Of a stretch of 64,000 nt of DNA, positions 21,701 to 59,850 are shown piece by piece (position 1 is the stretch's first letter; the number at the start of each line of letters is the position of its first letter). Origin of the DNA: Heliocidaris erythrogramma. Lineage: Eukaryota; Echinodermata; Echinoidea; Camarodonta; Echinometridae. Both the position numbers and the translations under genes were made by a program. The notes under the pieces were generated by a model, which saw only the letters and a program-made list of their open reading frames with translations, was not told the origin of the DNA and did no database searches. The stretch is from NCBI GenBank assembly GCA_025617745.1, contig CM046857.1, forward strand, positions 28,366,094 to 28,430,093. Direction: 5' to 3'.

Positions 21701-24700
21701 GGGTTTTGGGGCCCACATTCCCTCCATAATTCCCTGACAAGCAAAAAAAAAAAAAAAAAAAAAAAGGTCTTCACTCTAAAAGGGGGGGGGGGGCACAATT
21801 AAGAAAATGGCGGGTCGTCTATGGTAAAAATTCATACTTCTCTTCCAAAAGGGGGGGGGGGGCACGGGCCGGTTGTGCCCCCCCCCCCCCTGGATCCGCC
21901 AATGGGTAATACCTTATCTTCTTCTATGCGTATTGTAATAAACCGATGCAGTAGGTCTGAGAATAGGTTCTAGCGTATTGTTATTCCGTCCTCATAATCT
22001 GTGTAACATGTTATCGGCATATTCCGTTCTCATATTGGGAAGAGACTATTGGTCACAGGCCATTACTTCTGAAAATTCATCTCTTTAGCCCCTTTATGTC
22101 AACTTGCCGCTTGATTCCTTTCAGTTATGTTGCTAATACTCTTTGAGTAGAAAAGTAGCATAACATTAGCTAGAGATTCAAGATGCAAACCAAATGACTT
22201 CCATAAGAATATGGCTTATATACATTATGGCGATTATATTAATAACTAATATCAATAATGAAAACATAATGGGCATTGGTAAATAACCCTAATAGTGAGC
22301 GAAGTTTTTGAATTTTTGTTTTCGTCTCTTTCCTTTATGATTTCTTCTTTTCTCTTTCTCTCCTTTTCCTTTCTTTTCTTTTCTTCTTTCCTTTTCAACC
22401 TCTTACTTTGGTTGGAACCCCCTTTTAGGCATTATAACCACTTATCATTCTATCCACTATTTTACCATTTTTACGTAGTTATTGTCGGTCTATCGGACCT
22501 TCTAACTATCGGACCTCTACTGAACCTTCGGACCTTCTAACTATCGGACCCGTTGGTCATTCGATATATAGAACCTTCGAACTATTGGACCCTCCTGCCG
22601 ATTCGGTTTATAGAACCTTCTGTCTACTGGACCCTCTCGTACATCCGGTCTATCGAACCTTCTATCTATTGGGTGTCGGTCTATCGGACCCGCTAACTAT
22701 CGGACCTTCTAGCTATAGGGATGACCCCGGGACAAACGGTTACATGTCGTTTTTCCGAAGGTTCGTATTTCCGAAGGTTCGTTTTTCCGAAGGTTCATAA
22801 TTCCGAAGGTTCGTTATTCCGAAGGTTCGTTACTCCGAAGGTTCGTTTTTCCGAAGGTTCGTTTTTCCGAAGGTTCTTTTTTCCGAAAATGAAATAGGGT
22901 TCATAATTCCGAAGGTTCGTATTTCCGAAAATGAAATGAGGTTCGTATTTCCGAAAATGAAAAAGGGTTCGTATTTCCGAAAATGAAAAAGGGTTCGTAT
23001 TTCCGAAAATGAAATAGGGTTCGTATTTCCGAAAATGAAAAAGGGTTCGTATTTCCGAAAATGAAAAAGGGTTCGTATTTCCGAAAATGAAATAGGGTTC
23101 GTATTTCCGAAAATGAAAAAGGGTTCGTATTTCCGAAAATGAAAAAGGGTTCGTATTTCCGAAAATGAAAAAAGGTTATAAATTCAGAAAATATGGCTCA
23201 ATCCGTATTTCGGATAGGGAGGAGGGGAAAGACGGCCAAGTGTAAAGACATTAATTTCGTACTCAATATTCATAACAATGATGATAACAATTATAATAAA
23301 ATCCAGAGAAATAGACATTATATTATCGTAATTCCTATCAATATTATCATTATTATTATTATGATTATTATTATTATTATAATAATTATTATTATGATTA
23401 TTAAAATTATTAAAATTATTATTATTATTATCATCATTATTGTTATTATTATTAATATTATTATCATTGTTCCTATTATAATAACCAATATTTGTGAGCG
23501 AGCGTAGACAGCGAGCGCCTCAGGAATACATGTTTCATTTATCATAAAATGATATTACTTCGGTGATTAAAATACATACTGATGTATTGAAGAAAGTGAA
23601 TGATCGGATTCCGGATTAAATTTGCTACAACGAAATTGGCTTGAAGTTATTTATATAATGTATATACCGCTTTGGAAAATGAGACACACCAAAGTTCCAA
23701 GTAGATCTTTACAAGCAGAAAATGGCCACGTAATGTTTTTGAAAGGGGGAGCTGATGCCTCTTGGCAGAATATCATATTCCCCATTTCTACAATTTGCAA
23801 GCGAGCGAAGCGAGTTAGAAAAAAAACATAAAACCCTTTTTTTTATTGTAATGGAAATGCAATTTCGCCATCAAAAGACAAATATAGAACATGTAATAAT
23901 GAGCCATGAATAATATTACTTAACTGCTGCCGAATATGGAATATTTGGGCACTTCACTCGCCCTAATGAAGGGCGTTCCCTGTCCCAAACTATTCCGTTT
24001 CTAAATCTTACGCGCTAGTGAGCAAGTAAAAAAAAGGAGATATTGTCTATAGAATAATGATTTTGTTACCAGATAATCCAAACAACGATAACATTTTGAG
24101 TACCTTCCCGCCCACAGATAAGGATAGCCGACCATCTCGCTTCCCAAAATAAAAGGATTTTCGGGCACCACGCTGCTGGATTCCAGCGAGCCAAACATTG
24201 ACACTTTATTATCTTTAAGACATGTAAGATGTAATTACTTCGTCAACATTCAACATAAATTGTGATTAAAAAAATACTATGAAAAGTGTATACTAAAAAT
24301 AAGGTGGGGGCGTCCTGCATCCCCAGCCCTCAGAGCCATCTATTACAGAGTTTGGCCAACTCGGCTCCATGTAGGTAGCAATATGGCGCTTGTTGCTTTG
24401 TTAGGCAAGCACTAACCAAAGGAATATACGCCATGTTGTGCCCAAATAAACCGAGTTGGCCGAAGTCTGTAAGCCCTCCCCTCCGGTCCCCAAAACAACA
24501 GCAATAAAAACAACAACATAATATTACAGAGAGTTCATAAAGGAGTCACTGCTATGTTTAATAAATAGCCTGGCAAGTAGCACAACATATTATAACAAGC
24601 ATATTATTGATACGTATAGGCTATAGGCCAATTATACGATCATGACAAGGGAAATAAAAGAAGCAATAGTAGAGTAACCGGTGCAATATCTAAGTCTGGT

Positions 24701-27700
24701 CGCATAACTCCATCCAAAATGACATCGTCATCGTAATTCTGGGTAGTCCACTTCATAATAACAATTGTAATAATAATAATAACAATAATAACAGCAACAA
24801 CAATATTATCAATAATAAAAATTATAATACTGATAATATTAGTAATAATAATAATAAAAATGATAAAACAGATAATACTACTACTAATAATAATGATAAT
24901 AATGATAATTATAATAATAATAATAATAATACAAATAATACTAGTAATAATAATAAATAAATGAATAGATACCATAAACAACCAAAGCCGAAGAAAGATG
25001 GATCGTAACAAGTTAAAGAAGGAGTCTTATCATCAGGCTGATATGATTATCATAAAAGGAAACAAAAGTAAAACCAAACTATAATGCAAAATATCTCAAA
25101 CAATTTATGCAGCAGGGCAGACTGAAATCATTGAGCATGTTTTATAACCTTGCAAAAATATTAACATTTCTTAAAACAGATTAAAATCTTAAATTGTAGA
25201 GGTAAATGCAGCATAGTATGCTGTAAGTAATGACCTTGCTTACACAACTATACATCATTTTGTTTGCCGCATATCAGAAATGATCTATGACGCAGATAGT
25301 TTTCAAACACTTTACAATTCCAACAGAACTTTACAAAAGCCGTGCAGCAGCTACTTCTTAAGAAAACCAAATTCAAGAAAAGAATGATAACAAGTGAGCA
25401 ATAACAAAAATGTTAAAGCCACTGCTATGTAGCACACCGCATCTGAAGAATAAAAATAACTCTTTATACTGGCATATTATGTGTAAGTATATAGGTCAGG
25501 TGCAATCGCTAATTGAATATAATTATAATGATTAAAAGCAACATACAACCAAATTTGAAGAATAGTGGATCAAAATGTTAAGTTTTCTTTCAGTCGGGCT
25601 AAAATAATTATCATACAGGGAATAATCCTAACTATCTATGCCGCATAAATAGATTAAAATCATTGAACATGTTCTTTAACTTTGCCCAAATGCCATCATT
25701 TCTAAACATGGATGAAAATCTTTCATTTTATACAGCTGCTTACAGCATAATAAATTTGTACAGATTCTAATGAGTTGCTTCATTTTACTGCACAGTCTGC
25801 GTTTTTAACCGTTACAACCGCTGACCTGAAGTTTGAAATAACTTTTACAAGCATAACGAATTACAAAACACTAAAAAACATTGAGAGTAAAACAATCCTC
25901 ATCGTAAAAAATAGAAATAAGGAATTACACATGGAGAAGAAAACATTCTGACCTAAATTAATGGCTTTTATCAACCAGTGCCCCGCCTTATAAGGAGTTG
26001 AAGCGATTTATTTGAAACAATCGCAAGTTAAAATCAATCGCAACTGTGTACTTAACATAGGCCTAGGCATAGGCGTACGAGAAGGAGGCTGCTGCAGCCA
26101 ACCCCCCCCCCCCCCCCCCGGATTTTGAAAGTGCAGATATTCCGGCAACTCACACCTCATATTCAGGGAGTGAGGTGCCCGAATATCCTCATATTCCAGT
26201 CATTATACGCCGAAATACGTTATTTGTATGATTTTTCACAACGGAATGGCACAATTATTTTTGGTCGCTAGCTTCGCGCGCTCGTAAATTAAAAAAAAAG
26301 GAAAGTTGCTATATTTTTTACAACAAAAAGGCCATAGGTGCCGTAACAGGGATCAAACCCCCAACCTTCGCGTTTCCAGTTTCCATTTCATTTTTTTATT
26401 CATTGCGGGGGTGGGGGAGGTGCTTTTCGTCGAAAAGAGATCCGCTTTTTAAAGATGGCAATTAAAGCCATAATATCCTATCGTTACCCTACAGTTTCCC
26501 GTTAACAGTGGCGTAGCTAGAGTCTAGCCATTGTGGGAGCACTGGCACCATTGGAGGCACAAGTCTTTTGGAATAATCTTAAAGCTAATCTAAGAAGCCG
26601 CTGGTGGAAGAGGGTTGGGGGGTTGCCGGAAGGGGTCCAACCGTCTTCTTTCCTATTCCATTTTCTTTCTTTTTTTCTTATTTTTTCGCCATCCGATGAG
26701 GGAGGGGTGGGGGCGTGCCCTCCCCCCCCCCCCCCCCCGTTGCTACACCTTTGCTCCTGATGAATTCGCCTTTTTTTAACAGGAATTATGAACCCTATTT
26801 CATTTTTCGGAAATACGAACCCTATTTCATTTTCGGAAATACGAACCTTATTTCATTTTCGGAAATACGAACCCTATTTCATTTTCGGAAATACGAACCC
26901 TTTTTCATTTTCGGAAATACGAACCTTATTTTATTTTCGGAAATACGAACCCTTTTTCATTTTCGGAAATACGAACCCTTTTTCATTTTCGGAAATACGA
27001 ACCTTCGGAATTATGAACCCTTTTTCATTTTCGGAAATACGAACCTTCGGAAATATGAACCCTATTTCATTTTCGGAATTATGAACCTTCGGATAAACGA
27101 ACCTTCGGATAAACGAACCTTCGGAATAACGAACCTTCGGAATAATGCAACAAATGTTCGGAATTACGAACCCTTTTTCATTTTCGGAATTATGAACCCC
27201 CAGGCATGGGAAATTAGTGTTTCGGAAATACGAACCTTCGGAAATACGAACCTTCGGAAAAACGAACCTTCGGAAAAACGAGATGCCCCCGGACAAACTA
27301 TCACTTCGGAGGCGATTTGGATGTAGCCACCTCGCCCAACGAACCTACGTCCTGTAGAGAAGAATGACGCATCACCTCTCAATCTAACTAGAAGACCGGA
27401 TGGTACCTAGACCAGGCCCAGCAATTAGCAGGCCAATAATTAGACGATCTGATGCTGATACCTCGAAAGGCAAGATGGTACTACTAACAACAAAAGAGAA
27501 AATCGGAATTGGGACATGGAATGTACGGACACTCTATCAAGATGGAAATCTTGAAATCCTGCTTTGCCAAATGGAAAAAGTTTGACTGGGAAGTTCTTGG
27601 CATATCAGAGACTCACTGGACTGACTCTGGAGAGTTTGTATAGCAGGGATACAAGATCCCCTGTTCAAGCTACAACTCGATCCGCAGGCAAGGGGTAGCA

Positions 27701-47090: not shown

Positions 47091-47769
47091 AGTGTGGAGG
47101 TGTTTCTAAAGGGGAAATATAGTGGAACGGAATTTGTCAGCCAATTTTTCTACTGGTTAATCGAATAACTATTTTTTATGAATTTGAAAGAAAAAGTCCA
47201 AGAATGCGTTAAGTAGCTGCCATGTTTTTATGCGTGGTAAAGGTAAAAGCGAAAGCCACGTCAATGCGATATAGCCCTTGTTTTGTAACTGTTGGGGCAG
47301 TTGTTCATGCTGTTGTTGGGTCAAGTTATATATTAAAACAAACTGAACAATCTATTTAGGGGAACTCAAGTGTAGGGGGTTGGGTGGTTGCTCTTTTTTG
47401 TTCTTTCTTTTGAGAGAGAGATGCTTTTATTTGTGTAAACACCTGGTTGATTTTGTATTGGATAGCTTTGACGATAACCAAGAATACATTATTGACTATT
47501 CCCCAACTAGCAACCATGTTCATTTTGCATTAACCAGTTAATGGTTATAACAGCACTATATTCCAAAATAATCAATTTCAATACGGTGGTGGTGGGGGTC
47601 GCTTTTAATTCGTCCATTGTTAGGTAATGGATTATAGTAGGTCTTTATTTAATTTAGTTTTTTGTATATTCTTCGTCGTGTCGTCACACGCGTACGGGGT
47701 AGGTTGTGGAAGGTGGGTACTGGGCTCCCTTCAGTTATCGAAGGGATTGGGCAAGATAGTTTGTAGTAG

Positions 47770-47950
47770 GAGGGAGGGCTGGGGAGGTCAAATGTTTGTT
47801 AGTCATGGCTCAAGTCATAGCAGAGGCGTTCTTCTTTTAATAGCACCTGGCTCCAAAATCAAAACTGACCAAGTAGAAGTAGATGATTAAAGGCAGTATA
47901 TTTGATTCCCAGTTTTTTTAGTATGTAATGTTTATTTTCCAACAAGAGCT
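47770..47950 (+). mobile_element. L1-like LINE fragment B, endonuclease start
   Basis: Codes for WGGQMFVSHGSSHSRGVLLL, then IAPGSKIKTDQVEVDD, then, after a frame change, VCNVYFPTRA. These are the N-terminal half of an L1-type endonuclease (SHG..SRGV block, then the N-Y-P strand). The sequence stops at 47950, where the 10-kb element begins, and the same domain resumes at 57993. Confidence 0.75.
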
Positions 47951-48099
47951 ACACTCTTAATGTGAAAGAGTGAAAAATCACTCAAATTTTCTAGTGACTT
48001 TGATTTAACTCTAATCGAGTGTAGTTTAGCTCTTTAAGAGTTAAACTATGTTTCCGCTCACGCCCACTCACGAAGGAGTGACTCGAAAACGCCGCCCTT

Positions 48100-48189
48100 T
48101 CACTGAGCGAACTATTGACCAATCAGGAACGGCTATTTTCGCGCAGTTGCATGCTGTGCAAAATTTCGTCAGTTTTCAACCATTTTAAC
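48100..48189 (+). promoter_or_regulatory. Probable promoter of the SAM-domain gene
   Basis: Lies between the element terminus and the SAM start codon. Contains a CCAAT box in the context GACCAATCAGGAA (48117-48129), is GC-richer than its surroundings, and has no TATA box at the expected distance. Inferred from position and motif only. Confidence 0.4.
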
Positions 48190-48277
48190 ATGGCCGGTGG
48201 ACAGCCACAGCTGCAGACTGTAGAGGAGTGGTTGGAGGAGCGCCATTTTCCGGAGGAAATCATCAAAATATTTACAG
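48190..48277 (+). CDS. SAM-domain protein, first exon
   Basis: Starts at ATGGCC (context AACATGG), coding MAGGQPQLQTVEEWLEERHF and then PEEIIKIFT. The V-x-x-W-L start followed by an amphipathic helix is the first half of a sterile alpha motif (SAM) domain, a protein-protein interaction module. A donor at ACAG|GTGAAA (phase 1) closes the exon; reading through instead would stop 7 codons later at 48301. It lies 240 bp inside the terminus of the 10-kb element. The rest of the SAM fold was not located, so the gene may be broken. SAM-plus-helical-domain proteins of this kind are, as I recall, multicopy in fish and invertebrate genomes. Confidence 0.6.
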
Positions 48278-49086
48278 GTGAAAAAATGCTTGATGATTGG
48301 TAGACTATACCGAGACGTTATAGTTAAACTGGACCATGTGAGGTGTGTGTAGCTGTCAATTTTATGTTTCATTTGAGGCTCATTCGCCAGGCGCGAATTT
48401 CAATTTGCGATTCCTACAGCACATGCATTGCCATTATGTCAGTGGTGTGTCGTACGACCGTCTTGTCTGGTCGATCCTGTGTGTGTGATTTGGCTGAATT
48501 GTGGTGTCCATATTTTACGGACATTTTCAAAATAATAATGAAGGCGAAATTCAATAAAGAAATTATCAGATTTTACACAAAATTAACGAAATTCATGAAT
48601 ACCAAATGAAGAGCTGCCAAGCAGTAGATTTTATCGTACTTCGTACGATTTTTCAGTGACAATACGACACTAGGATTTTTTTCCATTAAATACGATTTAT
48701 CAAAAAAATAATGTGTCTCCGTGTGTTAATGTATCTCTCATTGACATTGCACATGATTGCGTGTGCGTGCGTAATTTGCTGCAGCTGTGAGGCACGCGCG
48801 CGCGGCACAGCACTAACACTACAGCTATTTAATTTGTCTATGGCTATAGCTAGCGAGCTAACTCCCAGGGACGTCAGGCGGTGCCGGCCAGCAGCAGCCG
48901 CTCTCGATCTCAAGAAAGTGTCGAATCGAACTTCGAGCTCCGCTATAATTCTGTGATCGTTGCATGAAATTCAAATATTTTGATCATGACATCGAAATCG
49001 GGATCTGGAATTCTGAAACAAACATTCTTATCAAAGTTATACTTCGAGATGGCCTTTCATAGCTAGTAGCCAGCAAGAGGGACAAT

Positions 49087-49142
49087 TTTAGTGCTCAATC
49101 ATGCTCGATGTACTCCCGGTGGAGCCACTCCCCCGCAAAGGG
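49087..49142 (+). repeat. Solo copy of the left terminus of palindromic element P1
   Basis: Matches 49745-49801 in direct orientation with two or three mismatches (shared TTAGTGCTC, ATCATGCTCGATGTACTCCC and TGGAGCCACTCCCCCGCAAA). It lies directly before the duplicated SAM-gene segment. Confidence 0.8.
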
Positions 49143-49744
49143 GGCCTAGTAAAGTTACTTCCAGGATCAAAAAAGAAGGGACCAACGTGGGCCAACCCGA
49201 GCTGACCCTGCAACATTTCTCATGCAGAAGAATGTGGTAAGTTAGGGGAACCTTTAGTCTGTTTATGGTTCACAGAAATGCTTTGAGTAGATGGTTTTGT
49301 ATGTGGGTGAACAACAAGTGTTGAGAATCCAAGAAGACTTAACCCTTGAAAGACTGGGGGGCTGATTCAACCCCTCCCCCCACCTCGACATAATTTTTTT
49401 TTGATAGCGCCGTTTGCTGAATTTTTACTTTCACGTCTCGCGCAACTTTTGAGACCAAATTTGTTGTGCTCACGTGTGCGGTTTTTTAACCTCGCCCATT
49501 AGAAAAAAGCTTGTCAACCTCAAAATTGTTCAAAAATGTGATATTGGGTACAAAGTCAAAGAGTATGGTTGGGTTGCGGAGGGCCATTATAACTTTCAAA
49601 GTAGTTTGCCCATCATCTGTCAGTATAGACTACACCGTAGTGATGAAACATGTCAAGCGTAAAAGATGGTGCCACTTGCAACACACAGCACCAGCATATA
49701 TTGAGATGTGAAACTATTACATAGGGCTGTTACAAATACTCAAA
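49143..49744 (+). pseudogene. Duplicated SAM-gene segment, broken copy
   Basis: Over 90% identical by eye to 55241-55829. It includes most of the exon at 55218-55330 and the intron that follows. This copy lacks the splice acceptor and the first 23 bases of the exon. It also has one extra base (ACCAACGTGG against ACCAAGTGG), which shifts the frame to a TGA, so it cannot code. It is bracketed by direct copies of the P1 left terminus (49087-49142 and 49745-49801). The intron part has a 10-bp insertion (CTCACGTGTG region) compared with the other copy. Confidence 0.8.
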
Positions 49745-50170
49745 TTTTAGTGCTCGATCATGCTCGATGTACTCCCTGTGGAGCCACTCCCCCGCAAAGG
49801 GGGACGCGTATGACCGTTACCAAAAATGCAAATAACCCCCTTTTGCGGTCAATTTCAAGGACATTTTGTGAAATTGTAAGGACACTTTCGGAAACTTTCC
49901 CCTATTTTACCATATTTCAAGGACAAGATATTTATACCCTTTTTTCATTAACATATAGGTGTCCAAGACCTGATTCCTCAAATTACAAGTTCACACACAA
50001 TTAATATAACGAAAAAAATGTATTTTTTAATGTGTTATTCATTTAGAAATATTTCGGCAATAGTTCATATAAACTCCTGGGGAAAAACCACTGAACTCTA
50101 TTTAAAAATAATAACCACTATCTGGCCACTCACAAATAGGTGAGGTTAAATAACCTCATATACCGACTTA

Positions 50171-50655
50171 TACATGTACAACTATAAGCTTATCTAAAGA
50201 TAACCTTGTACTCCAGACTAGCTTTTATGGGTGAATAGGCTTCAACAGCTTTTGTTTGTATCAGTGTGCCTATTTCCAGTCTAGATCATTCATACACGAG
50301 ATGGCCTATGGATGGACCCTTGCCTATGTGGGACTGTATTATCCAACATTCACTGTTGCAGCAGTCACAAACAGACAACATTGTTTGAAGCAAGATTTGA
50401 TTTTCTTTAATTTGCTAGATTACCTGATTCATGGACTCTTCAACTAGTCTTATTTAACTGTGCCACAAATTTGGGGATTCAGAATTGAAAATAGAATTTT
50501 AATTTAAATAATTATTTTCCTCTCATAAATGATGTATGACTGGAAAAAAGCATGCTGCTAGTACACACAAAAGCTATTGAAGCCTATTCACCTATAAAAG
50601 CTAGCCTGGAGTACAAGGTTATCTTCAGATAAGCTTGTACATAACTAGCTTGTAC
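50171..50655. mobile_element. Palindromic MITE P2
   Basis: About 85-bp inverted repeats (50171-50262 and 50560-50650) sharing TAAGCTTATCT, AGATAACCTTGTACTCCAG, CTAGCTTTTAT and GTGAATAGGCTTCAA. The spacer is about 300 bp with no coding. Nested in P1. Confidence 0.85.
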
Positions 50656-51045
50656 ATACTATGAGTATGAGTGCCTCATACCCATACACCCATAAACTAG
50701 TAACATGAAAGCGTATGAATGGGACTGTTACTGTTACTAGTAATGTTACTTAGTTGAACTTACTACTATTCATACCTGTGAATAAGTCCTTTCACATGAT
50801 CCTTTCACATCACGATTCGTGCAGTTGACTGCATCTTCCCACTTCATCTTTGAAGGGCATACGATGATTATATGAGTGAAAATAGTACTTCAAACTTGGT
50901 CAAATGTTACATACAGCGGCGACATTCCGGAATTGTTTTGAGGGAAACAAGATGGCGCTGGCGAGCTGCCAGTGGCGTCATGTTGCCTTTGGCTAATCAG
51001 CGTGCAGCGAGCGATCGAGCCCAATTAACAGTGGGAAAAACTTAC

Positions 51046-51060
51046 CTTCACGTCCGCCAT
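51046..51060 (-). other. Possible first coding exon (ATG plus splice donor)
   Basis: On the minus strand, AAGATGGCGGACGTGAAG is followed directly by GTAAGTTTTT, a strong start context and a strong donor only five codons apart. No downstream exon could be attached. It lies inside P1, just outside the left arm of P3. Confidence 0.25.
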
Positions 51061-51131
51061 CTTGCTGAGTGAGACATAGTCCAGATAATTCTTAATCGTC
51101 CGCTTCCCCCACACACTCACACACCATTGAT

Positions 51132-52225
51132 TCACATACTCCACTCACCGCGCAAAGCCGCTGATCGCGTAGCCTCTTGTCGAGGCCCTGGCGCTGTTGA
51201 AATCCTTGGCGATATGGAGAAAAACCGAGGGCCTGTTGACACCCGACCTGAATTATATATTCATGAGGCACGATTTCCTACTGAATTATGCATGAAACGT
51301 GAATAGTTAGATAACCGCGGCGATCGCCCAGCAAATTGGCCAATGAAATCTCAAGGATTTCTTACTTCAGTTCTGGACTAGTCTATTATTTGGGGGGGGG
51401 GGGGGGATTACGTAAATATCTTGCTCAAAATACATTCACAGACAAGCACATTATGAAGAATTCGATTTCTAGCTTACAAACCATGGTAATTTGAAATAAG
51501 ACAAATGTACATATTTCTCAAGAGATCATCATATATTTACAAATAATGAAGAATGGGCAATAAAAGTCACCGTTCAACAATAGATGCATCTCCATCAATT
51601 ATGATGTAACCGAGGAGTTACCAGCAACTTCACTGCCCGGCAAGGCCCGGGGGATCCGTCTGGCCCAGCTCGCGAAGCTAAGCAGCGCATGCAGCATGCA
51701 GTCTCACTCGTCTCACTCTCCAGGCCCACGGAGGTAATCAGCACAGAGCGATAGCGCGTGAAAAATAACACTTTTTCCATAGCCAGTAGGCAGATTCACA
51801 AAAACATCTTGTCCTTTAAGTGCAGATTTGATTGCAAATCTTTGAATCGGTCATCTTCAACATTCTAGCGGCATATTCTAAGCTCTTACAAATATCGTCA
51901 TCACTCGTCGTGGAAGAAACGTTGAACGCCATTTTGGCTAGCTGCGATGAAATAGCTTGCAGTCGAGTCATGAATATTTAACATTACGTCATGCTGGTAG
52001 CTCGCGCTTATTGGATGATTTTCACCGACCAAAATTTGGTCGGAATATTCGTCAAAACAATGAAATACAAAATAAATTCAGATCAGGTGTCAAGAGGCCC
52101 CGGCGCAAGCGCCTCGGTGTTTCTGGCTCGCTTGCCTCCATATCGCCAAGGATTTCAACAGCGCCAGGGCCTCGACAAGAGGCTACTGATCGCGCGACTT
52201 GTACTCCACTAATCGGCAAATTTGT
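51132..52225. mobile_element. Palindromic element P3 carrying a helicase fragment
   Basis: Arms 51160-51260 and 52080-52200 are inverted copies: AGCCTCTTGTCGAGGCCCTG and GCGCTGTTGAAATCCTTGGC are identical, and the match continues with gaps into GGGCCT-TTGACACC. The spacer holds a minus-strand RecQ-like helicase fragment and a 15-base G run (51392-51406). It could equally be an internal duplication of P1. Confidence 0.7.
51713..51932 (-). pseudogene. RecQ-like superfamily-II helicase, N-terminal fragment
   Basis: The start codon at 51932 (context CAAAATGG) gives 39 codons (MAFNVSSTTSDDD, then ICKSLEYAARMLK) before a stop. In the next frame the sequence continues RFAIKSALKGQDVFVNLPTG and then YGKSVIFHALSLCADYL, ending at 51713. 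LPTGYGKS is the Walker A loop and 'GQDVFV' precedes it as in RecQ-type ATP-dependent DNA helicases. One frameshift separates the two parts. Only motif I and its surroundings remain; DExH and the later helicase motifs are absent. It starts about 150 bp inside the right arm of P3, so it may be the relic of a transposon-encoded helicase; some DNA transposons are known to carry one. Confidence 0.65.
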
Positions 52226-52627
52226 GTGAGTCACTCGCCCTCAACGTCCGCTTGGTCTGCTTGCTGCGTGGATTATTCACACAGAACTCCTTTCTGTGAT
52301 TATTCAATACAGTCCATTAGGTGGACTAAGTGAGACAATGCGGGGATTTTTTTTCTCAACGATTAACGCGCCCTCCCCGGCAGGCCCGCAGCTAGCGACT
52401 CGGCTCCGGGATTTTTCTTCATGGGTTTTCTTCCCTTTTCCTGACCTCAATTTTATCAATTTCGAGGACACCTGCGCACCCCTATTTTGTATATTTCGAG
52501 GAATATTCTGCCCGCGGACGTTCCTTGAAATTCACCCCTATATCCGCGATTTTGGTAACGGTCATGCGGTCCCCAAGTCACATTGAGTGACTCCACCGGG
52601 GATGTACTGCATGTGCATGTGAGTTTG

Positions 52628-52851
52628 TTTCTCAAATTTCGAAGATTTTGATGAAATTTTGGGCAAAAACGAGGCAACTGCTCATCAATTTGCTTTCTTG
52701 GCAATATGCGAACGCCAACCAGTGCGAGTGCCAAACGTGTCGGCGCGCTCATTGGCTAACGCTCGCCTATCGCTGAGGAGGGAGATTGATGAGCCGTACG
52801 TTGCCTTGTTTTTTGCCCAAAATTTCATCAGGATCTTCAAAATTTGAGAAA
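52628..52851. mobile_element. Palindromic MITE P4, 224 bp
   Basis: The left arm 52628-52695 and right arm 52784-52851 are inverted copies starting TTTCTCAAATTTCGAAGAT and (inverted) TTTCTCAAATTTTGAAGAT, both running through GATGAAATTTTGGGCAAAAA. Only about 90 bp separate the arms, so single strands could form a hairpin. It lies 18 bp from the right end of P1. Confidence 0.85.
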
Positions 52852-53223
52852 TCTGGTAGGTCCACTGTATTTATTAGATGTAATATTAAACATATTGACC
52901 CCGATTTAATAATGTAAGATATAATTTTGGTCGTAATCGTGTCGGGTGAGGCATTAATATGTTTCTCTCATTTTTCTGCTTTTATTAAAATCAACTTGAC
53001 TTCAGGGTGAACTTTCCCTTTAACCGCTAAACACTCGCTGGTAAAAGGCAAGATCATCTATTTCTTTTTCTGGCATAGCCGCCTTTTTCAAGAAAATGAG
53101 TGCCAATAGAAACACGCCGAATGTACGATAAACATACATGTATCTCGTCAAGCCCTCTTTCATTGTGTAGATGTGAAATGTTAGTTTCATGTGATTTTTG
53201 TTTCTCTATGTTCTTCTATCCAG

Positions 53224-53362
53224 GATTATAACCTAGATGAGGTACTAAGGAACCACAAGGATGGAGCAGCCCTGGTAATGCAGTTGAAAGGTGGAGGAGC
53301 CCTCAATGATGCTGCACGTGTCAAATTTATTCAAATTGTGACCTCATATATGACAGATAAAA
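53224..53362 (+). CDS. SAM-domain protein, helical-domain exon, cut by a MITE
   Basis: The acceptor CTATCCAG|GAT opens a frame coding DYNLDEVLRNHKDGAALVMQ, LKGGGALNDAARVKFIQIV and TSYMTDK. This resembles the helical region after the SAM domain in SAMD3-like proteins (KxG..xL...G.L....R...I..IV.Y). At 53363 the TGTGACCC MITE begins and supplies an immediate TGA. Beyond the MITE, at 54029, ATTGACTCTCT|GTAAGT would have continued the exon to a normal donor. So the exon was intact before the insertion and is now truncated or dependent on removal of the insert. Confidence 0.6.
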
Positions 53363-54028
53363 TGTGACCCTCCACCACAAAACGACCAATAAGTCGGAAA
53401 TTATGTTTTTTTTCATTTCAGCACAGTTTGAAAGCTTAGATTCTAAGCTTTAAAATGATATACAACTTGTCTTCTATAGACTAAGCTAACCCTTATAAAT
53501 TACAATGAGAATGTCAGAGTGTCGGACAGGGTAATGACCAAAACAATAGAGAAAACAAGCTCTAAAGAAGCGTGACCATTTAAGAGCGCCTAATCTGTGT
53601 CCTATTGTATGTCGCACAAAAGGTTGAGTCAAAACTCCAAAGCCTACACTGTGAAGTACCCGTTGGATTGGGTTGAAACTTTCCATACCTTTAGAAGAGA
53701 TATATTTCTTTCCTTCTGTAGATTTTGAATATCAGGCGATGCAGACTTTTTGGGTTATACCAGAAAAGTGATGTGAAGTACGATCCCAATAAGCTGACTC
53801 ACAGAGTTTGAATGTCCATGAAAAAATGGTCATTTTGAATGAGAGTAAAAACATATTTCAATATGGTATTTTACTCCGAAATTTTGTCAGATGGTAGATT
53901 ATTATCTATACTTTCAGAAAATACCAAAAACTTAAAATATATATTTCCACCCCAAAAACCTTTTTTTCAGCTGTTTACTCTAGAACTCCCATTGCGACTT
54001 ATTGGTCGTTTTGTGGTGGAGGGTCACA
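53363..54028. mobile_element. TGTGACCC MITE, copy 2, inside a coding exon
   Basis: A 666-bp element whose inverted ends TGTGACCCTCCACCACAAAA are perfect, both followed by CGACCAATAAGTCG. Flanked by AA on each side (53361-53362, 54029-54030). It has the same architecture and size as 19159-19818, with ends diverged. No transposase. Confidence 0.85.
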
Positions 54029-54271
54029 AATTGACTCTCTGTAAGTAAAAATTTGTGTGGGGTGTGGGCATATGTGATAGTGAAAAGGCTTCTAAGGCTT
54101 TGTTTACGTACAAAACGTAAAAAGGCACAAGTTGTACTTACTGACCATCCATGCAAAAGCAGGTGATTAAGAAGCAGGCGAGACTAGTGGCTTAATAGGC
54201 TGTAACGGTGTCCGTTATTTTCGTTTTACCGAATAAACACTGAAAAAACACTGAAAAACACAGAAAGTCAC

Positions 54272-54695
54272 ACATTGGTCCTGGTGGGAAGATGTGCAAG
54301 ACATATTTTTCGGATGAGTCGGAATCGTTGCCATGGTAACGGCATATTTATGGCAGAAAATCAAGGAAACACCTTGCGGATCGAACTACTTCCTCAGTTT
54401 TTGACCAAAAGTCATCAAATTCGGTACACACATTGGTCTTACTGGGAAGATGTGCAAGACATATTTTTCGGATGTGTCGTCGGATGTGTTGGTACTGCAT
54501 TGCCATGGAAACGGCATATCTAGGGCGGTAAATCAGGGAAAAATCTTACGGATCGAACTACTTCCTCAGTTTTCCACCAGAAGTCAAGGAATTTGGTACA
54601 CACGTTGGTCTTGGTGGGAAGATGTGCAAGACATATTTTTTGGATGTGTCGAAAGCTTCGTTGCCATGGAAACGGCATATCTATGGCAGTAAATG
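54272..54695 (+). repeat. Tandem repeat, 158-172 bp, 3 copies
   Basis: Each copy contains GAAGATGTGCAAGACATATT (from 54289, 54447 and 54619), then GGATG-GTCG, TTGCCATGG-AACGGCATAT and CGGATCGAACTACTTCCTCA. The third copy is partial. It lies in the 10-kb element between SAM-gene exons. Confidence 0.85.
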
Positions 54696-55217
54696 CATGT
54701 TTTCACCAAGTGCCCTAATTTTTGGACAAGGCTGTTGTCACGGGGCGGGGGTATTAATAATCATCTTCAGTGATATTTCTAGTTATTTTCAGACATCAGA
54801 TCCAGCTTCCATTGAAAGACATACATCTAGAGGAAATAATAACCCATTTGTATTAATTATACAGTTGTGTACCTGTAGATAAAGTACACATATTTACGAG
54901 ACCATATTTTGCACCATAATGTACGGTAAAGACGAATGATTACAATGACAAAATTTCATTCATATAGCTCCTTTATTTTGCGGTGAAGTCTTCAAATCCT
55001 ATACACTTTATAATTGTTAAAAGAATGTGTTGATGAGGCACTTCATAAAATGCTATTTTAAAATCCATGATAATGACATTGACATGTTGTCATGTTAAGA
55101 TGTGTAGCAAGATTATTGATTATCAATTGAGTGTTGTATTTATGTTCAGTTGTTGTTTTTCTAAAATCATAGGCCCTATGTTGACTTTCATATAAACTGA
55201 TTTTGTTACGTTTTCAG

Positions 55218-55330
55218 GTGACCTTGATGTTTTGGAGGGCCTAGTAAAGTTACTTCCAGGATCAAAAAAGAAGGGACCAAGTGGGCCAACCCGAGCTGAC
55301 CCTGCAACATTTCTCATGCAGAAGAATGTG
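55218..55330 (+). CDS. SAM-domain protein, downstream exon
   Basis: The acceptor GTTTTCAG|GT and donor GTG|GTAAGT bracket a phase-1 to phase-0 exon coding GDLDVLEGLVKLLPGSKKKG and PSGPTRADPATFLMQKNV. The intact splice sites and open frame, and the fact that its duplicate at 49143 is broken, mark this as the functional copy. The phase does not join directly to the 53224 exon, so at least one linking exon is missing or unseen. The domain is not recognised on its own. Confidence 0.55.
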
Positions 55331-55829
55331 GTAAGTTAGGGGAATCTTTAGTTTGTTTATGGTTCACATAAATGCTTTGAGTAGATGGTTTTGTATGTGG
55401 GTGAACAACAAGTGTTGAGAATCCAAGAAGACTTAACCCTTGAAAGACTGGGGGGCTGATTCAACCCCTTCCCCCACCTCGACATATTTTTTTTTTGATA
55501 GCGCCGTTTGCTGAACTTTTACTTTCACGTCTCGCGCAACTTTTGAGACCAAATTTGTTGTGCGGTTTTTTAACCTCGCCCATTAGAAAAAAGCTTGTCA
55601 ACCTCAAAATTGTTCAAAAATGTGATATTGGGTACAAAGTCAAAGAGTATGGTTGGGTTGCGGAGGGCCATTATAACTTTCAAAGTAGTTTGCCCATCAT
55701 CTGTCAGTATAGACTACATCGTAGTGATGAAACATGTCAAGCGTAAAAGATGGTGCCACTTGCAACACACAGCACCAGCATATATTGAGATGTGAAACTA
55801 TTACATAGGGCTGTTACAAATACTCAAAT
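55241..55829 (+). repeat. Partner copy of the duplicated SAM-gene segment
   Basis: Direct repeat of 49143-49744, 6.1 kb apart. It covers most of the exon and about 500 bp of intron, ending at TACTCAAAT; at the same point the other copy passes into the P1 terminus. Confidence 0.85.
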
Positions 55830-57750
55830 GAGTATTTTGGGTGTTCTGACACTTTTTTAGTATTTTGCTTTTTTTTTTTCAATTGTTAAACCCAAATTCA
55901 TTCCAACTTCCAGAAATTGATTCAGATTGAAGAAAAACAGATTACTACACATCAATGATAACTGTATCTGATCAGAAATACTGCAAACCATATCAAAGCT
56001 AATTGCACTTTGACCGTGAAAAACTCTTCGGAAATGGAAACAAAGTACTTGAATACTTGAGATACTTGAATATAGGCACCACCGATATTTTTATTGTAGT
56101 TGCGCGGGAATCCACTACTAAAAATTATTGGACGTGCCTATCTTCAAGTATCTTGTATGATGGCACACAAGATACCCAAAATAAAAATTCCTCTTTTATT
56201 CTCTAATTGGAGCATTTTGGCTCCTGAATAAATTTATTTAGAACAAAGAGATTTAATTAATAAAAATTCTCACGACTTGCATTTTAGCGATGGCAGCCTG
56301 CAGCCGACAACCATTGACCTTTAGTGCCATCTGGTGTTACTGGGAGTTGGAAGAAGAGATCATGTGACCTCGCCCGGAAGGGCCTCGAGTCAACTTTATT
56401 TGATGTGCGTAGATGCTCTAGAAGCTGAGATACATAAACATTTTTTGAAGCAGTGGAAAAATGAACTGGTCTGCTTGTATTGTTCTCTGTTTGCAAGGAC
56501 ATAAGGTAAAAAGTTGGATTTTTTGTTGTAGGTGGAAGTGGACAACTAGTTTGACTAGTTTGCCTTCTTAGCAGAAGATTGTATGTATCTCGGCTTCTAG
56601 ACCTCTAATGAACATAATATTAAGTTTATTGGGGAGCTAAAACTTTTATCTCAATCAATTTTTAAATATTGACCTATCACAAATATGTCTAATATTACTG
56701 TATATTTTCGATTGTATAACTTTTTTGGTTAAAGTCTATGTATAAATAATTGAAATCCATATTGACATATCACAAATACGTCTAACATTACTGTATATTT
56801 TCGATTGTATAACCTTGCCGGTTAAAGTCTCTGTATAAATAATTGAAATCCAGTGTTACTGAATAAGAATGAAAAATGGGAAAAACAGACGGGAATTTTT
56901 GTTTAGAGTATCCAGTATTGTGTAATAAAGGATGCGCGAGTTCCATATTTTTATCGTGTTTCCACCGGCATCCAAATGTTGGACCTGCCTATCCGTTATA
57001 AAATGACATAATAATGGATACTCCAATACCTGTCTCATACTCTAAATCCTGGGTAATGATAAGTAAATAACATTTGCATGTTTGTTTGTTAATCCTCGTC
57101 TAGCAAAGGGGAGGGGGTGGTATCCACCCCTTTCCATTTTTTTTTACACCCTTTCATAACCCCCGTTTTTGGTTCCAAAAGATTTAATGTAATTGTCAAA
57201 TAATATTTTGATCTCCTTTTCTTGCAAAAACAAGCACCAACCGGGGTATAGGTGGTTCATACATCTTGAAGTGATGGGTGGGTGGGGGTGACAAATTGAA
57301 ACCTGAAATTGTACACTGGCCCAGATACTTATGATATTGGTTCCAATGGATAGCTATGATCCTCCTTTCTATTGATACCAAAATAAGTACCAACATACCT
57401 AGTATGATGTCAGAATCAATCGTCAGCATCATGTTTGTGGATGTTTTTGGCCAAAATCATAAGTATTGAATGTTTAATAATGAAAATCCAGTGAAGGGGT
57501 TGGTAACCACCCCCCCCCCCCCCCCCTTCGTAAAACTTGCTCCTGTAGACGACGGTTAAATTGAATTTTGAATTGAATTGAATAATTAGTATAATTATTT
57601 TTTTGTAAATGTCATTTTACTTGCATTGTTAATCTTCAAAATTAAGATTTTAATGTGTTAATAAATGCAACTTTGCAAATTTGTTCCAATCAAAGTAGTT
57701 ACAAATAGTGGTTTCTTGCATGTTATTCTCCATTACGTCATAAAAGGAGC
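55830..57750. other. 3' part of the 10-kb element; no gene recognised
   Basis: Apart from the 93-bp duplication and a C run (57510-57527) nothing is recognised. A 72-codon minus-strand frame at 56284-56502 has no known motif. Confidence 0.4.
56666..56850 (+). repeat. Tandem duplication, 93 bp
   Basis: Two adjacent copies with few differences (CTGTATATTTTCGATTGTAT in each), at 56668 and 56761. Confidence 0.85.
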
Positions 57751-58311
57751 AGATTAAACCACTCTTTAAAAGAGTGAAATTTGCACTCTTTACAAGAGTT
57801 ACCATTATCCCTCCTAGCTCATTTAGAGTGAACAAGTCTAATAAACAGTTCACTCTTTCTAAGAGTGAATTATGTCACTCCTTCTTAAGAGTGAAATTCA
57901 CTCTAAAAGATTGGTCACTCATACGGCTCTTTGAAATAGTGAACTTTGACTCTTTTTGAGTGGTTTTTCACTCTTCTACATTTAGAGTGTAGGATAAAGA
58001 AACAATTTTTTGGAAAAAATAGATGTAAGTATCTCAGATCTTTGCTCTTGTAACCATTCACTCATCTTAGGAGGAGACTTTAATGTAATTTTAAATGATA
58101 CTTTGGATTACAGAGGGCCTAAAGTACCCTTGAAGACTAAGTTTACAAACAGTTTGGAAATCCGAATTGTTTCATAGGAAATATGATTTGTTAGACATAA
58201 TTATGGAGGCAAAAGCACCCGGACGAAAAACAGTATACTTTTAAACAGAAGAGCCCTTTAGTACAAACCCGTTTAGATTATTGGTTCATACCAGACCAGC
58301 TCGAGAGATTA

Positions 58312-58794
58312 GTGGGGACTTGTGAAATATTGACATCAATTACTCTTGATCACTCAGGTATTAGTTTGGAATTACAATTTGTAAACAAAAGTGAAAATTA
58401 CAGTGGCAAATCATATTGGAAATTTAATAATAGTTTGTGTTTAGGTAAAGATTTTGTGGACGAAATGATTACGGAAATAGAAATTATTAAGCGGAATTGG
58501 GCGGGTGAATTTAATGATAAATTAGTATTTTGGGATTTTCTTAAACTGGAAATGAGTGAATATGATAGAAAATACTCGAATGTCAAAGCGAAAGAGAGGA
58601 GAACGAATATTGAAAAATTAGAAAAGGAATTGAGAACTTTAGAGCAAGATTTAATAACTACTGCTACTCCTTTAGAAACATCTAAACAGCTTGAAGAAAA
58701 GAAAAAAATGTGTAAATTATACGATAGATCATTAGAAGGATTAAAAGTTAGGTCACGAGTGGTTTGGTTTGAGAAAAAACAAAGAATATTTTGA
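58312..58794 (+). pseudogene. LINE B inter-domain segment
   Basis: The longest open piece (160 codons) between endonuclease and reverse transcriptase: coiled-coil-like and lysine/glutamate-rich (ERRTNIEKLEKELRTLEQD), as is usual for the L1 linker. Shifts frame at about 58790 into the next piece. Confidence 0.75.
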
Positions 58795-59272
58795 ACAATT
58801 ATTAAAATCAAATAAAAAGAAAACCGTAATACAGGAACTGTATGATGAGAACAAATCTGTGACAAAAGATAGAAAAGAAATTACAGAGATAATTAAGTTA
58901 TTTTATGATAAATTATATTCGAAAAAGAGTGATGTAACAGAAGACGTTTTAAATGAAAGTTTATTTTCTAAAAATAGCCCAAAGCTAAGTGAGGAAAGTC
59001 GGGAAGCACGTGAAGGAAAACTTAGTAAAGATGAATGCTATGAGGTTTTAAAAACAATGAAGACAAATAAAGCTCCAGGTAATGATGGCCTTTCGGTAGA
59101 ATTTTATATCACGTTTTGGTTACACATACGTGGGCAATTAGTTGAAGCCTTAAATGAAGCTTTCGACAAGGGTAACCTATCAACATCTCAGAAGCAAGGA
59201 GTCATTACATTAATAGATAAAGATGGTCAAGATCCCCTTTACATAAAAAATATAGACCAATTACACTCCTAA
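58769..59272 (+). pseudogene. LINE B reverse transcriptase, first blocks
   Basis: 167 codons ending in a frameshift just before YRPITLL. Contains LKTMKTNKAPGNDGLSVEFY, the first conserved block of non-LTR reverse transcriptases. Confidence 0.8.
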
Positions 59273-59580
59273 ATGTTGATTACAAAATTCTTTCAAAGGT
59301 TTTAGCGAAAAGAATGAAAAAAGTTTTGTGTGAAATAATTCACATGGATCAGGTGGGATACATGGAACAGGAATATTGGAGAGGCCATACGTTTAATAGA
59401 CGATATGATTTTCCATTGTTTGACACACAATATGGATTGTTATTTAATAGCTGTAGATTTTGAAAAAGCTTTTGATTCTGTCTCACATTTTTTTTATTTA
59501 GTGTATTAAAATGTTTTGGATTTGGCCCTTCTTTCTGTTCTTGGATAAAAACAATTTACACCGACATACGTAGTTGCGTT

Positions 59581-59850
59581 ATGAATGGAGGGCTTTCTAC
59601 TGGATATTTCAAAATAGAGCGAGGGGTTCGTCAATGTGACCCACTTTCTCCCTATTTGTTTTTAGTCGTTATCGAAATCTTGGGACATGCCTTCACAAGG
59701 GAGAAAACCTTAAAAGGAATTACTTTCGGTGATTTTGAAGTAAAGAAAATATTGTATGCTGATGATGTGACAATTTTCATACGAGATAAAGTGTCAATTA
59801 GGACGTTAAAAAACTTGTTAAACAAGCTTTTTTGGAAATTAGTGGTTTAA
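59581..59850 (+). pseudogene. LINE B reverse transcriptase, catalytic YADD block
   Basis: 89 codons with GVRQCDPLSPYLFLVVIEIL and KKILYADDVTIFI. The YADD pair is intact; the Gly-to-Cys change in RQxDPLSP suggests decay. Confidence 0.8.

Follow-up and report, generated by a model that had tools for sequence, protein, structure and literature searches.

Transposons bounded by terminal inverted repeats (TIRs) that carry captured sequence, known as Pack-TIRs, are mostly short and single-copy in the published animal cases: across 100 animal reference genomes, the captured sequence has a median length of 224 bp and four cases are multicopy (PMC8277862). Here we describe an element in the sea urchin Heliocidaris erythrogramma that lies inside a long interspersed nuclear element (LINE) and holds three exon-like frames, which we refer to as exons 1 to 3. 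The window is the whole 64,000-nucleotide stretch that was analyzed (G000:C5:28366094-28430093), with positions counted from its first letter, and the genome searched comprised 1.064 Gb in 26 contigs. We consider it probable that the element is a non-autonomous, Pack-TIR-like transposon that carries the 5′ part of a captured gene and has moved at least twice.

An insertion at TA in a LINE endonuclease frame

A reading of the window from its letters alone (hereafter the sequence-only reading) had taken the interval for one insertion that interrupts a LINE endonuclease frame, and the alignment of empty LINE sites that it proposed bears this out. The left and right window flanks were joined and compared with 34 loci, of which 21 gave a total of 23 alignments running straight through the junction and corresponding to 18 distinct places in the genome. 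These empty sites read CCAACAAGAGATA/GGATAAAG (the slash marks the insertion point), and the window reads CCAACAAGAGCTA-element-TAGGATAAAG; the exceptions among the 18 are one site without the A of TA and one with CG for GG. Because the 18 uninterrupted LINE copies carry a single TA, the TA dinucleotides on either side of the insertion are a target-site duplication and the element occupies 47952-57989. An uninterrupted LINE copy (L006) contains at 1247-1816 a 189-amino-acid frame that matches Exo_endo_phos (E 1.3e-5, 25.5 bits against a cut-off of 24.5) and reads ...NVYFPTRD/RIKKQIEF... across the insertion site; in the window, the frame reads ...NVYFPTRA 5′ of the insertion and RIKKQ 3′ of it. 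Each flank, left and right, also matches LINE copies separately. The interval 47952-57989 (10,038 bp) is a single TIR-bounded insertion in the endonuclease frame, placed there by transposition into the LINE at TA.

The inverted termini with subterminal motifs, likewise noticed in the sequence-only reading, hold up under measurement. The inverted pair 47949-47986 and 57955-57992 extends over 38 nt with 89% complementarity, and the pattern AGAGTGAAAAATCACTC, allowing up to two mismatches, has two matches in the window, both exactly at the element ends, where none was expected. The outer 250 bp on each side are dense in CACTC/GAGTG pentamers, with 6 on the left and 13 on the right compared with 0.5 per 250 bp in the interior of the element, and 250-bp windows with at least 6 such pentamers occur in the 64 kb only at the two element ends.

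A family of TA-target ends

The 34-bp end pattern TACACTCTWAATGTNNANGAGTGAAAAANCACTC, with up to three mismatches, has 134 matches in the whole genome (51 + 83) and none for the reversed control; the 21-bp core of the pattern has 267 matches versus 7 for its control. One hundred matches were listed for each of these two patterns. Among the listed 34-bp matches 96 of 100 begin with TA, a biased figure since the pattern itself demands TA. Fourteen inward-facing end pairs were present among the matches listed, namely that of the window (10.0 kb) and 13 others of 0.4-4.8 kb, including pairs at C16:17711815-17714315 (2.5 kb) and C18:3342288-3344405 (2.1 kb). The majority of the ends belong to a TACTCTCTAAATG subtype. 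The ends belong to a genuine TA-target family that is made up mostly of short elements.

Two of these 13 were read. A 1.2-kb element on C6 (L046:8001-9205) has arms of ∼195 bp (195 bp, 93% alike), and a 4.8-kb end pair on C10 (L053:51-4853) also has arms of ∼195 bp, matching over 148 bp at 91%; none of the window exons is found inside either. The C10 pair was considered as an autonomous copy and rejected, being a short element filled by a reverse transcriptase-bearing insert that is putatively Penelope-like. A CACTCT-type end on C8 (L055) has only the first ∼34 bp in common with the window end.

On C6 and C10, the short CACTCT/CTCTCT elements have GGCGTTCTAAGCCAACGACCCGGGTTCGATTTCCGGCGGAGAC-like sequence within their ∼195-bp arms. 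By eye, we presume a resemblance to the 3′ half of a tRNA; ARAGORN reported no tRNA there. At G000:C13:38464416-38506370, more than 20 family ends lie in the same orientation, mostly ∼2.0 or 2.5 kb apart, apparently an element turned into a tandem array. Three same-orientation ends at G000:C3:44989618-44994578, spaced by ∼2.45-2.48 kb, are possibly another such array.

Copies of the exons elsewhere in the genome

The sequence-only reading had supposed that genes of this type are multicopy, which does not hold for this genome at the depth searched: exon 1 occurs at three places, exon 2 at two, and exon 3 at three, with an additional duplicated fragment in the window, and the genome search gave no divergent exon 1 relatives up to E 5.

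The copy at C4:28335701 matches the window in terminus, upstream region, and exon 1 over 692 aligned bp, and 5′ of its left end nothing resembles the window. Since left end and exon 1 recur together here where the surrounding DNA is unrelated, the exons move with the ends. The exon 3 of this copy lies at 28356451, 20.7 kb farther along; both exons are intact, and the search with exon 2 gave no match on C4. The interior is packed with nested elements, and the copy exceeds 20 kb. A second copy, on the minus strand at C11:12.625 Mb, corresponds to 55813-57991 of the window up to the right terminus, which is followed by TA and unrelated DNA. These comparisons show exon 1 traveling together with the left end (C4), and sequence 3′ of exon 3 together with the right end (C11).

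The remaining gene copy, at C11:15.556 Mb (C11a), covers 48060-56852 with gaps and includes all three exons, of which exon 1 has lost 1 bp and exon 2 carries a TAA stop. One edge of this copy falls within a satellite and the other within a tandem repeat; the 50 kb read contain no termini, if one match with eight mismatches, judged spurious, is set aside. The expectation that gene copies are flanked by the termini is borne out by the left end and exon 1 on C4 and fails, within the 50 kb read, for C11a, one of the three copies. On C12, at 31.15 Mb and 51.05 Mb, the match to the left end stops after 105 bp (at 48054); the two places are copies of a single duplicated block and are 98.5% alike across 8 kb. 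The C12 break at 48054 nearly meets the C11a start at 48060, as would be expected at a boundary between end and cargo; since C11a starts beside a satellite, this is suggestive only.

On C12 (L043/L044-L045), the 105-bp left end lies directly 5′ of a reading frame, by eye a LINE, that combines a PHD-like motif with an endonuclease-like portion. In the C11:12.625 Mb copy (L031/L039), some 6-10 kb inward from the right end, the opposite strand has a 615-amino-acid open frame with units of HxAAxxGHxxV type, ankyrin-like by eye.

Pairwise divergence of the copies, over ungapped columns in three blocks (1,593 columns), is 1.9-4.3%, with 26 unique changes in the C5 (window) copy, 14 in C4, and 26 in C11a. 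In the right block (803 columns), the unique changes number 20 in C5, 25 in C11a, and 9 in the C11:12.625 Mb copy. Coding differences between copies amount to seven amino acid-changing or nonsense changes and three silent ones, leaving out codon 47 of exon 2, which touches an inserted repeat. This 7:3 ratio is close to the neutral expectation and gives no sign of selection, the numbers being too few for statistics.

The exons and the SAM-domain question

The sequence-only reading had described a promoter-like CCAAT region followed by three exons of a SAM-domain protein. The CCAAT region and the three exon-like frames, which have good splice signals, are present (Table 1), with exon 2 of the window copy split by a 664-bp repeat (53364-54027). 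The phases are 1 at the end of exon 1, 0 to 2 across exon 2, and 1 at the start of exon 3. Because these phases fail to join directly, either exons are missing or the model is incomplete; no convincing missing exon was seen among the frames listed between the three exons. The whole is a gene-like structure that is incomplete and whose naming as a SAM gene is putative.

The SAM assignment itself stays below threshold. Exon 1 matches SAM_3 with an E of 0.032 and 14.6 bits, below the Pfam gathering score (cut-off 22.6), over 20 of 65 profile positions, and the unrelated DnaB_2 profile matches the same exon 1 residues about equally well (E 0.028). Exon 3, and exon 2 alone, have no match in Pfam. 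A search of solved structures returned four hits, none of which is a SAM protein; a designed repeat protein ranks first (E 0.0014). A match to SAM_1, SAM_2, or SAM_3 above the gathering score over the domain is accordingly lacking in the predicted exons. The pattern of exon 2 may resemble SAMD3-like proteins, which is no more than a lead. Our literature search, insofar as its sources were accessible, turned up no description of a DNA transposon carrying a SAM gene.

In the 5′ part of the element, the window holds a second copy of the exon 3 region (49084-49810, 96-100% identical), bounded by 68-bp direct repeats. Outside the element, peptide units of FHFRKYEPYFIFGNTN type recur in long frames at 22795-23183 and 26700-27326, which lie on opposite strands and are presumably a tandem repeat read as protein.

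Table 1. Features of the element and its LINE target (window coordinates; / marks a splice junction).
Feature	Position	Strand	Basis
Left half of target LINE (5′ region and start of endonuclease frame)	47340-47951	+	L006 466-925 ∼ 47340-47785; L006 1360-1550 ∼ 47779-47951
Left TA of target-site duplication	47950-47951		single TA in 18 empty sites, one alignment without A
Left TIR, CACTCTTAATGTGAAAGAGTGAAAAATCACTC...	47952-47986	+	common to C4:28335701; over 105 bp also C12:31150343(-) and C12:51052274
Left subterminal zone, 6 CACTC/GAGTG pentamers	47952-48201		pentamer count
CCAAT box, 67 bp 5′ of first ATG, in C5, C4, and C11 copies	48119-48123	+	promoter role putative
Exon 1, MAGGQPQLQTVEEWLEERHFPEEIIKIFT..., ends in phase 1 at ACAG/GTGAAA	48190-48277	+	splice signal and copies
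Duplicate of exon 3 region (55237-55829)	49142-49745	+	between 68-bp repeats 49084-49151 and 49743-49810
Nested fold-back repeat, perfect 51-bp inverted arms	51169-52186		within 49115-52600, a stretch absent from C11a
Exon 2, first part, DYNLDEVLRNHKDGAALVMQLKGGGALNDAARVKFIQIVTSYMTDK...	53224-53363	+	acceptor TTCTATCCAG/GAT; second copy C11:15560201 with one TAA
664-bp inserted repeat splitting exon 2, ends GTGACCCTCC and GGAGGGTCAC, likely AAAT duplication	53364-54027		absent from C11a
Exon 2, last bases 5′ of donor GTAAGT	54032-54040	+	comparison with uninterrupted C11a
Dispersed repeat with 158-172 bp internal repetition	54253-54856		also on C12, away from any of the exons
Exon 3, GDLDVLEGLVKLLPGSKKKGPSGPTRADPATFLMQKNV, TTTTCAG/.../GTAAGT	55218-55330	+	copies C11:15561425 and C4:28356451
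93-bp tandem repeat where C11a similarity ends	56666-56851		repeat and copy comparison
Right-hand part of element	56853-57989		full-length match only C11:12.625 Mb; four others 63-105 bp
Right subterminal zone, 13 CACTC/GAGTG pentamers	57740-57989		pentamer count
Right TIR, CACTCTAAATGTAGAAGAGTGAAAAACCACTC...	57955-57989	-	inverted pairing and end-pattern match
Right TA of target-site duplication	57990-57991		empty-site comparison
Right half of target LINE (rest of endonuclease, start of reverse transcriptase)	57992-59608	+	L006 1549-3050 ∼ 57990-59608

The search for a transposase

Only two open reading frames of at least 110 amino acids are found in the element, neither of them transposase-like by eye. 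In the copies that were read, no transposase candidate was tied to the ends, and the longer, transposase-bearing copy that the sequence-only reading had suggested looking for did not emerge among them. The C4 copy holds remains of two transposases, one DUF4817-type and one putatively pogo-like. The DUF4817-type transposase has 150 scored matches genome-wide and is nested in C4 with its own end; the pogo-like fragment has 13 matches, 12 of them other than the fragment itself, and those 12 lie more than 370 kb from any listed end. Both were judged to be independent nested elements of families found elsewhere.

Origin of the cargo

Between the two origins offered by the sequence-only reading, capture of a host gene fits better, given 134 ends versus three gene copies. 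On the account that we favor as probable, a TA-target, CACTCT-ended non-autonomous transposon would have picked up the 5′ part of a gene, comprising the upstream region, exon 1, at least two more exons, and the introns, perhaps by template switching, as has been proposed for multicopy Pack-TIRs (PMC8277862). The composite would then have moved by cut-and-paste with a transposase supplied in trans, which the TA target suggests may be Tc1/mariner-like, reaching at least the window site on C5 and the site on C4, and probably that at C11:12.625 Mb. The exons would be of host origin, and the cargo is likely a passenger without present function.

Several observations weigh against this account. Genome searches with exons 1, 2, and 3 did not find an intact parental gene, and the sole end-less copy, C11a, which is broken and has its edges in repeats, may be a truncated copy and not the parent. 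The tree of copies is star-like, without the longer C11a branch that an outside parent could show, and gapped BLAST identities of the same blocks are 87-97%, lower than the ungapped divergences imply. No right end was found for the C4 copy up to 28369000, no left end for the C11:12.625 Mb copy in the stretches read, and no helper transposase among the copies read.

Alternatively, the unit might stem from a composite or end-bypass event, in which a gene segment lay between two separate short members of the family and the outer ends of the pair moved as one. The end subtypes do differ (TTAATGTGA on the left versus AAATGTAGA on the right) and the sequences inward of them soon cease to match, in contrast to the long and nearly identical arms of the short C6 and C10 elements (93% over 195 bp and 91% over 148 bp), and left-type ends occur without the right type on C12. 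However, the C12 ends, as one duplicated block, count once, and no locus was found where two complete short elements enclose the gene segment. We regard this route as unlikely.

A different possibility is an undescribed TA-target transposon with several genes, one of which would be the native source of the exons; the window copy would then be a degenerate form that has lost its transposase. Consistent with this, no copy both intact and outside an element was found, the start of exon 1 lies ∼240 bp in from the terminus in the two copies with a left end, the copies radiate in a star-like manner, and the C4 copy, at more than 20 kb, harbors the pogo-like and DUF4817-type remains. Nevertheless, the latter transposase is an independent family with its own end in C4, none of the 12 other pogo-like matches lies within 370 kb of a listed end, only three gene copies face at least 134 ends, exon 1 lacks divergent relatives up to E 5, and the coding changes look neutral. 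With three incomplete or broken copies, no tied transposase, and no sign of selection, the proposal that a SAM protein is native to such a family is not supported, and a native gene in general seems to us improbable. More doubtful still is its fuller form, in which the exon protein is native to a TA-target lineage with accessory genes, the short CACTCT elements are deletion derivatives, and C4 is the remnant of a large multi-gene form. A native cargo would indicate an unrecognized multi-gene transposon.

That two unrelated solo elements and unrelated LINE halves mimic one insertion has next to no chance of being true: short CACTCT-ended elements are common in the genome, but 18 uninterrupted LINE copies cross the exact breakpoint with one TA, which rules out independent solo elements.

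Comparison with known systems

The favored account, a captured gene part in a non-autonomous transposon, places the window element beside the Pack-TIRs, which are likewise TIR-bounded and non-autonomous and carry non-transposon sequence including exons (PMC8277862). The window element has TIRs on both sides and a target-site duplication. The multicopy Pack-TIR cases described there likewise show one chimeric structure at distinct target sites (PMC8277862); here, C5 and C4 share the left end and exon 1 within unrelated flanks, with no right end found on C4 to 28369000. The definition in that source requires an unambiguous parental copy (PMC8277862), whereas the only end-less candidate here, C11:15.556 Mb, is broken and may be truncated. 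Unlike a typical Pack-TIR as characterized there (PMC8277862), the window element would have ∼8.8 kb of captured sequence, including the upstream region and three exons, at no fewer than two sites.

Ssk-FB4 of Drosophila is similar in having a gene with its 5′ upstream region between TIRs, at several sites, with the helper transposase unknown (PMC8277862). FB4 has duplications of 9-10 bp and TIRs of ∼700 bp, whereas the element described here has TA and 38-nt TIRs, and Ssk has an intact parent and protein evidence, neither of which is shown for the window gene (PMC8277862). Turmoil-1 of Caenorhabditis elegans is also an animal DNA transposon with incorporated protein-coding sequence, but its captured sequence lies inside the inverted repeats and that of the window element between short ones (PMC2572040). 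The TA duplication and TIRs below 100 bp recall Tc1/mariner as outlined in the Pack-TIR source (PMC8277862); with no DDE transposase linked to these ends among the copies read, Tc1/mariner is a candidate superfamily only.

The element provides a clean animal example with exact empty sites in the same genome as an internal control, in which a TIR transposon would have carried several kilobases of a gene, upstream region included, to more than one site. Units of this kind could give rise to new promoters or chimeric genes, provided that the cargo is transcribed. Set against these described systems, the element is of a kind already known; its size and multicopy state are unusual.

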